From: Gammaproteobacteria bacterium
GTDB lineage: Bacteria > Pseudomonadota > Gammaproteobacteria > Poriferisulfidales > GCA-002705445
Assembly: GCA_018674175.1 (NCBI GenBank)
Contig: JABHAT010000018.1
Coordinates: forward strand, 1 to 44,151
Reading direction: 5' to 3'
DNA length: 44,151 nucleotides
This document shows positions 22,422 to 28,741 of the stretch, piece by piece. The stretch's first letter is position 1; every line of letters starts with the position of its first letter. Made by a program: the position numbers and the translations under genes. The notes under the pieces were generated by a model. The model had not been told where the DNA came from, did no database searches, and saw only the letters and a program-made list of their open reading frames with translations.

Positions 22422-25220
22422 TTGAGATTAACAAATATTAAGATTTCTGGATTCAAATCTTTTGTAGACAAAACTGAAATTTCATTATCCGCAAAAAGGA
22501 CCGCTATAATTGGGCCAAATGGATGTGGGAAATCTAATATTATAGATGCTGTTAAATGGGTCCTAGGAGAAACATCTAAACATATTAGGGGCGATAGTAT
22601 AGATGATGTTATTTTTAATGGGACAGATACGAGAAAGCCACATGATTATGCAAATGTAGAATTATTATTTTCAAATACAGAAAATAGAATTGGTGGTCAA
22701 TACGCACAATATGACCAAATTTCAGTAAAAAGAGAAGTTACAAGAGATGGTGCGTCAAAATATTTTTTAAATAATAGTCACTGCAGAAGAAGAGATATCC
22801 TAGATATATTTATGGGAACAGGTCTAGGTCCAAAAAGTTATGCCATTATAAACCAAGGAACCGCGTCAAAATTAATAGAATCAAAACCAGAGGAATTTAG
22901 AGTTTATTTGGAAGAAGTAGCAGGAATATCAAAATACAGAGAAAGAAAAAGAGAGACAGAGAATAAAATTAATCATACTAAAGAAAATTTAGATAGGTTG
23001 AATGATGTAATTAGCGAAGTATCAAAGCAACTAAAAACATTAGAAAGGCAGGCAATTCAGGCAGATAAGTATAAAAAATTATCGGAAGAAAAGAAATCTA
23101 TCAAATCTGAAATTTTAGCAATTAGTATAAGAGATTTTCAAGAAAAAATAGGAAATAAAAACATAAAGATTGAAACTAAAAAAACAAAATTAGAAAAAAA
23201 ACAATCCGAGGCGAACAGTTTAAATACACAAACAGAAAAGCTTAAAATTTCATACCAAGAATTAAATGAGGAAATGAATGAGACCCAAAAGCAATATTAT
23301 GATGCGCTAAGTGAGGTCGGACGAACTGAGCAAGCAATAGAGTATGAAAAAGATGGTGCAAAACGAAACAAGCAGCAGTATGAAAACGCACTAGAGTCAA
23401 TTGAAAATATAAGAGCTAGATTAAGCAGAGATAATAACGAATTATCAGAATTTACAAAAGATATGGACGAGTTAAGTAATAAAAAAAATGAAAGTAAAAA
23501 GAAAACTATAGGTTTAGAGAATGATAAAATTAACTTAAATAATGAATTATTAGGAAAAAAATCTATTCTAGATGATGATTTGAAAAAACTTTATGAGTCA
23601 GGACAGAATATAAAAAATAAACAAGAAAAAATAATTAATTATAGTAATGATATTAAAAGAATAAAAAATGATATCGAAGCTTATTCTGAAACATCACAAA
23701 AAATATTGACTGAGTTGAAAAAAATAGAATCATATGAACTTGATATAAAAATAAAAGAATACAAAAATGAGACAAATATATTTAATGATCTTTTGAAAAA
23801 AACAGACAATAACGAACTAATAGAAAGTTCTAAAAAAATAAAGGGTATATTGGAAAGCATAAAAGAAGTTGTTAAAACTATTCAGTCAAATGAGTATGAA
23901 CTAGCTAAAAAAAATGAGCAAATAAAGAATGATATAGATAGCAAAATATCTTCTGAGACCGACAGATTGGCTGAAATTATTTTAAATTTAGAAAGTTCTA
24001 AAGAAAATATAGTTTTATTGAGAGATGAAGTTGGAAATCTTGAGGAAATCACAAAAAAATCGCAAATAGAAATTATGCAGATTAGTAATAAGTTTAGCGA
24101 GATTAGTAAATTATATGAACAAGAAAAAAATAATCTACATAACTTAGAAGTAAATAATGAAACAAAAAAAGTTAAAATTAGTAATTTAATAACTAATATT
24201 GAATCTAGTAATAATGAACTCAAATCAATGTCTGGTAATATTGAGCTTCTTAGAACTAATAATGAGTCACCGGACAATAAACTTTCGCAGCTTGAAGAAA
24301 ACTTAGAAGGTAATCTAAAAGTTCAAAATATTAAAGATTTAGAATTAAAAGAAGTTAGGGTAAAAATAACTGAGCTTACGAATAAAATATCTTCTTTAGA
24401 TAAAAATAAGTTAGATATTACGAGTCATATAGAAGTTATAAGGCATGAGATTTCTGAAGACGAAAAAAATATACAAGAAGTTATTGGTCAAGTTAAGAGT
24501 ATAAAAGGACAGTTATCTGAATTGGGCGTAGATAATAAATCAATACTAGATGCAGACATAGATTACGACCTATCTAACTGGAAAAAAAGAGAAAATGAAT
24601 TATCTTCAGCTATAGATAGAATGGGCCCTATTAATTTAGCTGCGATTGAGCAGTTTAAAGAATACGAAGAGCGAAAATCATATTTAGTCATGCAAAAAGA
24701 AGATCTGATGTCAGCTTTAAATTCTCTTGAAGATGCGATTAAAAAAATTGATCAAGATACAAAGGAAAGATTTAAAGACACATTTGAAAAAGTTGACAAA
24801 AAGTTGCAAGAGATTTTTCCAAAATTATTTAATGGAGGAAAAGCATATTTAAAAATGACAGAAAATGATCTTTTGAAAACAGGGGTTGTAGTATATGCAA
24901 GCCCTCCTGGGAAGAAACTTACCTCGATAAACTTATTATCTGGCGGAGAAAAAGCATTAACAGCATTATCACTAGTTTTTGCATTATTTTCTCTTAATCC
25001 ATCACCATTTTGCATGTTAGATGAGGTTGATGCTCCATTAGATGATGTAAATATAGAGAGATTTTGTAAATTATTTACTGAGATGAGCGAAAAAATACAA
25101 TTTATAATAATTACTCATAAAAAAATTACAATGGAATATGTTGAAAAGCTTATTGGTGTTACAATGGGTGAAAAAGGTGTTTCAAAACTAGTAAATGTAA
25201 GTATGCAAGAAGAATCATAG
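22422..25220 (+). CDS. smc: Chromosome condensation ATPase SMC, short form without a recognisable hinge
   Basis: SMC organises and segregates chromosomes with ScpA and ScpB, which are not in this window. The start is TTG 22422, with AAGGA (22411-22415) six bases upstream; the product opens [16 protein letters not shown] as expected. The N-terminal head has Walker A GPNGCGKS (31-38) and the [14 protein letters not shown] segment. The C-terminal head has LLSGGEK (839-844 region), Walker [14 protein letters not shown] (863-875) and an ITHKK switch. Residues of about 170-780 look like continuous charged coiled coil. I see no glycine-rich globular hinge near the midpoint, and the length is 932 instead of about 1150-1190. 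The frame is intact throughout. Followed by zipA and ligA as in Pseudomonas. Confidence 0.95.

Positions 25221-25243: not shown

Positions 25244-28741
<3,498 letters not shown>

Follow-up and report, generated by a model that had tools for sequence, protein, structure and literature searches.

The window analysed here, a 44,151-nucleotide stretch of a gammaproteobacterial draft assembly, carries an smc gene in the order der-(queF)-smc-zipA-ligA, with hisS and bamB lying upstream (Table 1). The start codon of smc (22422-22424) is shared, in the same register, by all seven named congeners (L063-L069). The product of the zipA-like gene is only 231 aa long and scored 54.9 bits on the NCBIfam ZipA model, below its cut-off of 119.65. 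With the smc protein as query, a single smc match was found in the genome. The earlier note on this DNA, which was made from the sequence alone, had suggested looking for scpA and scpB, and both were found: the genes for ScpA (270 aa) and ScpB (211 aa) adjoin each other on another contig of the same assembly, in which ParB is also present.

Table 1 Features of the smc gene, its product and the genes downstream
Feature	Position	Strand	Remarks
Hinge-less smc gene	22422-25220	+	932 aa, TTG start, no internal stop
ATPase head, N-terminal half (residues 1-172; Walker A 31-38)	22422-22937	+	pN 0.022 between congeners
N-terminal coiled-coil strand (residues 173-458)	22938-23795	+	Predicted helix break 435-436; alignable with hinged SMC N-arms to ~452
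Tip-proximal conserved patch, N strand (residues 412-447)	23655-23762	+	pN 0.123 vs 0.337 in adjacent coil 331-411
Predicted apex loop (residues 459-463), hinge site of hinged SMCs	23796-23810	+	AlphaFold tip-fragment and full-length models; surrounding pLDDT 65-75
C-terminal coiled-coil strand (residues 464-733)	23811-24620	+	AlphaFold and alignment of middle
Tip-proximal conserved patch, C strand (residues 473-512)	23838-23957	+	pN 0.106 vs 0.327 in adjacent coil 513-600
ATPase head, C-terminal half (residues 734-932; signature, Walker B, D-loop)	24621-25217	+	pN 0.040
zipA-like gene, directly downstream of smc	25244-25939	+	ZipA_C in Pfam, 66 bits
ligA	25929-27980	+	smc-zipA-ligA order

The smc product scored 818.7 bits against the NCBIfam model SMC_prok_B (TIGR02168), for which the curated equivalog cut-off is 567.35, and Pfam SMC_N covered the whole protein. 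Its ATPase motifs are complete, with Walker A at residues 31-38, the Q-loop at 143, the LSGGE signature at 839, Walker B at 863-868, the D-loop at 870 and the H-loop at 897; the complete heads in a protein of 932 residues that the earlier note had described were thus borne out. RecN, an SMC-like ATPase, also lacks an SMC hinge and has a short coiled coil; the smc protein is unlike it, reaching 43.1 bits on the RecN model TIGR00634 against a cut-off of 407.85. The scores on the SbcC model (29 bits, cut-off 478.5) and the Rad50 models (at most 62 bits against 1087) were similarly far below what these families require.

Absence of the hinge domain

The smc protein has complete ATPase heads and no hinge. 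The Pfam hinge domain SMC_hinge (PF06470) gave no match in it even at E<=10, nor in the whole 1.08-Mb assembly, whereas control genomes gave matches, and none was found in 11 further genomes of the same family. PF06470 also fails on some full-length gammaproteobacterial SMCs (G016, G026, G028, G034 and G047), so that a missing Pfam match counts for little by itself, and we built a custom hinge HMM for this reason. The model was trained on 20 hinged gammaproteobacterial SMCs, G016 and G026 among them, with G022 and G025 held out. It scored 124-178 bits on the training set, 102 (G022) and 85 (G025) bits on the held-out proteins and 10.5 bits on an SMC from Chitinophagaceae, while this smc reached 0.2 bits and all 15 short SMCs compared, this one included, scored about 0. 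A diverged hinge overlooked by Pfam was rejected on these grounds, since the custom HMM recovers the Pfam-missed G016 and G026 as well as both held-out proteins. A hinge encoded elsewhere in the genome was rejected from the empty search of the assembly, and a zinc hook in place of the hinge because the protein sequence contains no CXXC; its only cysteines, at residues 35, 121, 864 and 882, all lie within the heads. These results agree with the earlier note, which had seen no recognisable hinge and had described residues 440-500 as rich in Lys, Glu and Ile with no glycine-rich segment; a single glycine is located there.

Among the genomes sampled, nine carry an SMC of 927-937 residues, eight of the genus (this one included) and one of a sister genus. 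Named carriers include several bins from marine metagenomes as well as AG-390-O20 and AH-287-I11, two records of uncultured 'Thiothrix', and a single-cell entry is among them. The protein shares 67-79% identity with its seven named relatives, none of which contains stops. Between congeners, synonymous sites are near saturation and the pN of the heads is 0.02-0.04, indicating that the heads are under strong purifying selection. Three draft genomes of the genus (G005, G009 and G010) gave no smc match, and ScpA and ScpB are present in all three. A hinge deleted by misassembly, or an smc gene in decay, might be suspected from a draft assembly of 30 contigs and 88% completeness, and from another reduced genome (G191) in which the smc frame is full of stops. 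However, similar lengths recur in the nine independent genomes and in about 19 genomes of a second hinge-less group (f144, see below), the frames are open and the heads strongly selected, and we consider an artefact of this kind extremely improbable. Frameshift, pseudogene and misassembly were rejected accordingly: the earlier note had thought a frameshift unlikely from the open frame, which holds for the equally long relatives too, and the assembly deletion that it had named as a possible objection does not fit the recurrence of this length in the family.

Coil arms and predicted tip

The middle of the protein, from head to head, spans 561 residues, compared with 792 in most hinged gammaproteobacterial relatives, where it consists of an N-arm of 351, a hinge core of 96 and a C-arm of 345 residues. 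The difference of about 231 residues corresponds to the hinge core of about 96 residues plus some 65-70 coil residues per arm. Taking loop 459-463 of the predicted hairpin as the apex gives arms of about 280 and 270 residues, roughly 20% shorter than those of hinged relatives. In profile-profile alignment, the N-arm stays in line with that of hinged SMCs until residue 452 or so, and colinearity resumes in the C-arm at about residue 499; these limits, together with the shorter middle, indicate that the hinge and adjoining coil are gone from both sides. The earlier note was thus right that a hinge and some coil are missing, but not that the arms are near normal in length. The length of the middle is constant, at 561-562 residues, in all nine family members. 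Among hinged proteins, the 1000-residue gammaproteobacterial SMC of G022 (L080) keeps its hinge (102 bits) with much shorter arms and a middle of 624 residues.

AlphaFold modelling of residues 371-580 (mean pLDDT 87) gave a tip made entirely of helix without any strand, and the full-length model was concordant, with helices at 169-308, 316-434, 437-458, 464-611 and 620-700 and a loop at 459-463. The pLDDT fell to about 65-75 around the apex and was only 60-75 at the tip. The full-length model was built from an alignment of eight rows and its heads were mostly below pLDDT 55, so it was used for the coil and tip only. A plain helical hairpin is thereby predicted to stand where the hinge would be. 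Foldseek comparison of the tip with PDB structures returned nothing at E<0.001, and searching PDB sequences with a profile of the tip returned generic or designed coiled coils only.

Two patches next to the predicted apex, one on each strand, change about three times more slowly than the flanking coil and the apex (pN 0.123 and 0.106, against 0.337, 0.345 and 0.327 elsewhere). The patch on the C strand contains an unbroken a/d stripe (I473, L477, I480, V484, Q488, E491, A495, N498, K502, I505 and I509), which is invariant in eight congeners. Conservation equal to that of the tip patch is found in other arm blocks, at about 290-325, 680-690 and 710-725, and conservation alone is therefore no proof of a dimer interface. 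The patches show no significant mirror symmetry around the apex, since 126 of 500 shuffles did as well. In our reading, the patches may form a tip-proximal contact that replaces the hinge.

Distribution and number of losses

In a survey of the class with follow-up searches, two further groups of small genomes proved to carry short SMCs. In f144, which forms its own order in our sample (25 genomes, about 0.7-1.2 Mb), intact SMCs have 929-956 residues and none is full-length. A second order, comprising f34, f165, f175 and f184, was sampled with 81 genomes of about 0.7-1.8 Mb. Its SMCs measure about 729-759, 809-817, 825-843 or 998-1007 residues, and the matches listed for it were not headed by a full-length SMC, which would have ranked first. 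From its size and structure we suspect that this order is SAR86, and call it SAR86-like. Representative SMCs of both groups were hinge-negative by the custom HMM. ScpA is kept in all six genomes checked from these groups, and ParB in 10 of 10. In the f30 genome G191 (L084; 1.0 Mb), the smc frame contains about 30 stop codons, an apparent decay or loss of smc, and its 0.9-Mb relative G298 gave no smc match.

In a tree of the SMC head domains, joining the hinge-less groups gave AU p values of 0.44-0.47. As this tree was undecided between one loss and several, rpoB was used. The rpoB tree joined this family with f144 (support 96/97), adjoining the hinged families f2 and f3, and the SAR86-like order fell separately. 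A tree constrained to unite all hinge-less lineages was rejected (AU p 0.0007). These results come from a single marker gene with long branches, and placing this family with f2 and f3, as the taxonomy does, was not rejected (AU p 0.067). The middle of this family aligned with that of f144 on one diagonal over 350 residues (E 2.7e-10; best off-diagonal 0.002), and the arms of these two groups align better with each other than either does with SAR86-like arms. A common origin of the tips across the three hinge-less groups was unsupported when the tips were compared alone (best E 0.005). The rpoB tree suggests at least two hinge losses in Gammaproteobacteria, and the simplest reading would place one loss before this family and f144 diverged and another in the SAR86-like order. 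Horizontal transfer of smc may offer another account of the distribution.

Within f175, the hinge-less SMCs of about 1000 residues (G418/L168, G482/L169 and G474/L170) are versions of the 730-residue SMC in which both arms have grown through internal duplications, a second copy of the neck motif included. The C-arm copies lie 143 residues apart and are 33-40% identical (E 1e-28 to 1e-36), and the N-arm copies match at E 1e-14 to 1e-22. These duplications were seen by comparing arm halves; BLAST self-comparison of whole G418-type proteins gave no off-diagonal match. Judged from these alignments, arms of the f175 type seem to have been resized in pairs.

Possible modes of dimerisation

Published hinge swaps and short-armed Smc proteins make a hinge-free SMC credible. 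Bacillus subtilis grows normally when the hinge of its Smc is swapped for the zinc hook of Rad50, an unrelated domain, which makes the dimerisation fold 'irrelevant' in that setting (PMC5344682), and the same protein is functional with arms of 253-267 residues and not at intermediate lengths (PMC5344682). For Smc lacking its hinge, contacts between the arms (rods) are said to aid dimerisation in this species (PMC5526789). In yeast, the Rad50 hook is replaceable by the MukB hinge (PMC6969161), and channel-less hinges occur in MukB, Wadjet II/III and Acetobacter Smc, which have longer arms (PMC12647877). Hinge-less SMCs from marine Actinobacteria were described by Sussfeld et al. in 2025 from sequence networks and AlphaFold models (PMC12153180), to our knowledge the first report of such proteins. 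The words SAR86 and Gammaproteobacteria are absent from that paper, and a text search of the open-access literature found no report of a hinge-less SMC from either group. Neither the actinobacterial precedent nor the lineage-wide occurrence figures in the earlier note.

The present system resembles the SMC-ScpAB condensin (SMC_prok_B) in both head halves, antiparallel arms, a single smc copy, ScpA, ScpB, ParB and the smc-zipA-ligA order, and departs from it in having no hinge, a middle of 561 instead of about 792 residues and correspondingly shorter arms. With the actinobacterial proteins (PMC12153180) it shares heads and coil, the lack of hinge and CXXC, a marine origin and no reported tandem canonical SMC; theirs are assigned to Actinomycetes and ours are gammaproteobacterial, and the two are set apart by description. 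Rad50 and SbcC likewise combine SMC-like heads and coil without an SMC hinge, but here there is no CXXC hook, the model scores are far below the cut-offs and the context is ScpAB instead of Mre11/SbcD. The engineered B. subtilis Smc(Zh), in which the Rad50 zinc hook takes the place of the hinge (PMC5344682), shows that Smc can work when the hinge fold is absent and the arms are shorter, but retains a strong dimerisation domain, while here no known dimerisation domain stands in the place of the hinge.

The sole detected smc product is most likely still the SMC subunit of an SMC-ScpA-ScpB condensin. The earlier note's idea that dimerisation would have moved to a coiled-coil tip or to a partner is plausible, with indirect support from the conserved tip-proximal patch and the published hinge swaps, and with slightly more confidence than doubt we infer a working SMC-ScpAB complex whose arms would be paired at the tip. 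Streamlining of the ancestor would have removed the hinge together with some 65-70 residues of the neighbouring coil on each strand, and what remained would be an antiparallel coiled-coil rod ending in a helical hairpin. Two such rods would pair side by side, their main contact being the conserved patch just below the apex, and the resulting four-helix tip bundle would substitute for the hinge. At the heads, ScpA/ScpB and ATP would close the ring in the usual way; ParB would load the ring, which would move DNA without the DNA channel or gate function of a hinge; with the hinge, its channel and some arm length gone, obstacle bypass by a hinge gate cannot operate.

The main rival is that no stable tip dimer forms and that two rods are joined at the heads only, by ATP, the ScpA kleisin and ScpB. 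The complex would then be open-ended, a clamp or tether for DNA with a RecN-like outline, instead of a closed loop-extruding ring. The lack of a hinge, a zinc hook or any known dimerisation fold at the tip and the unconserved apex would suit such a clamp, as would two hinge losses in reduced genomes, which fit the dropping of a refinement, obstacle bypass or loop extrusion for instance. Yet the conserved patch near the apex and the lineage-constant arm length suggest that the distal arm is still in use, and distal dimerisation is normally stable and functional (PMC6969161); we regard the clamp as rather unlikely. Alternatively, as the earlier note had raised, a partner protein could bind the tip and either bridge two SMCs or anchor the rod, for which the conserved patch would make a suitable binding site, but no candidate partner came to light and the assembly has no hinge-domain gene elsewhere, and a partner-supplied hinge appears quite improbable. 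Returning to tip pairing, we propose only tentatively its wider form, in which SMC complexes independent of a hinge may have arisen on two or more occasions among streamlined marine Gammaproteobacteria, once in the common ancestor of f144 and this family and once in the SAR86-like order, with a new coiled-coil tip as dimer contact and the chromosome still organised with ScpAB and ParB.

The hinge is treated as a near-universal part of SMC proteins, serving as dimer joint, DNA-contact site and, as lately described, obstacle-bypass gate (PMC12647877). What is new here is a gammaproteobacterial, genome-resolved hinge-less SMC that retains ScpA, ScpB and ParB, together with a distribution that suggests repeated loss, and the hinge looks dispensable in nature. 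These short and simple SMCs (about 729-956 residues) may serve structural and single-molecule work, and the arm-length rules of B. subtilis can be tested on variants with about 350, 430-450, 550-560 and 618 residues from head to head. Small-genome ocean lineages that live without a hinge and keep ScpAB and ParB offer a natural way to learn which SMC functions require one.
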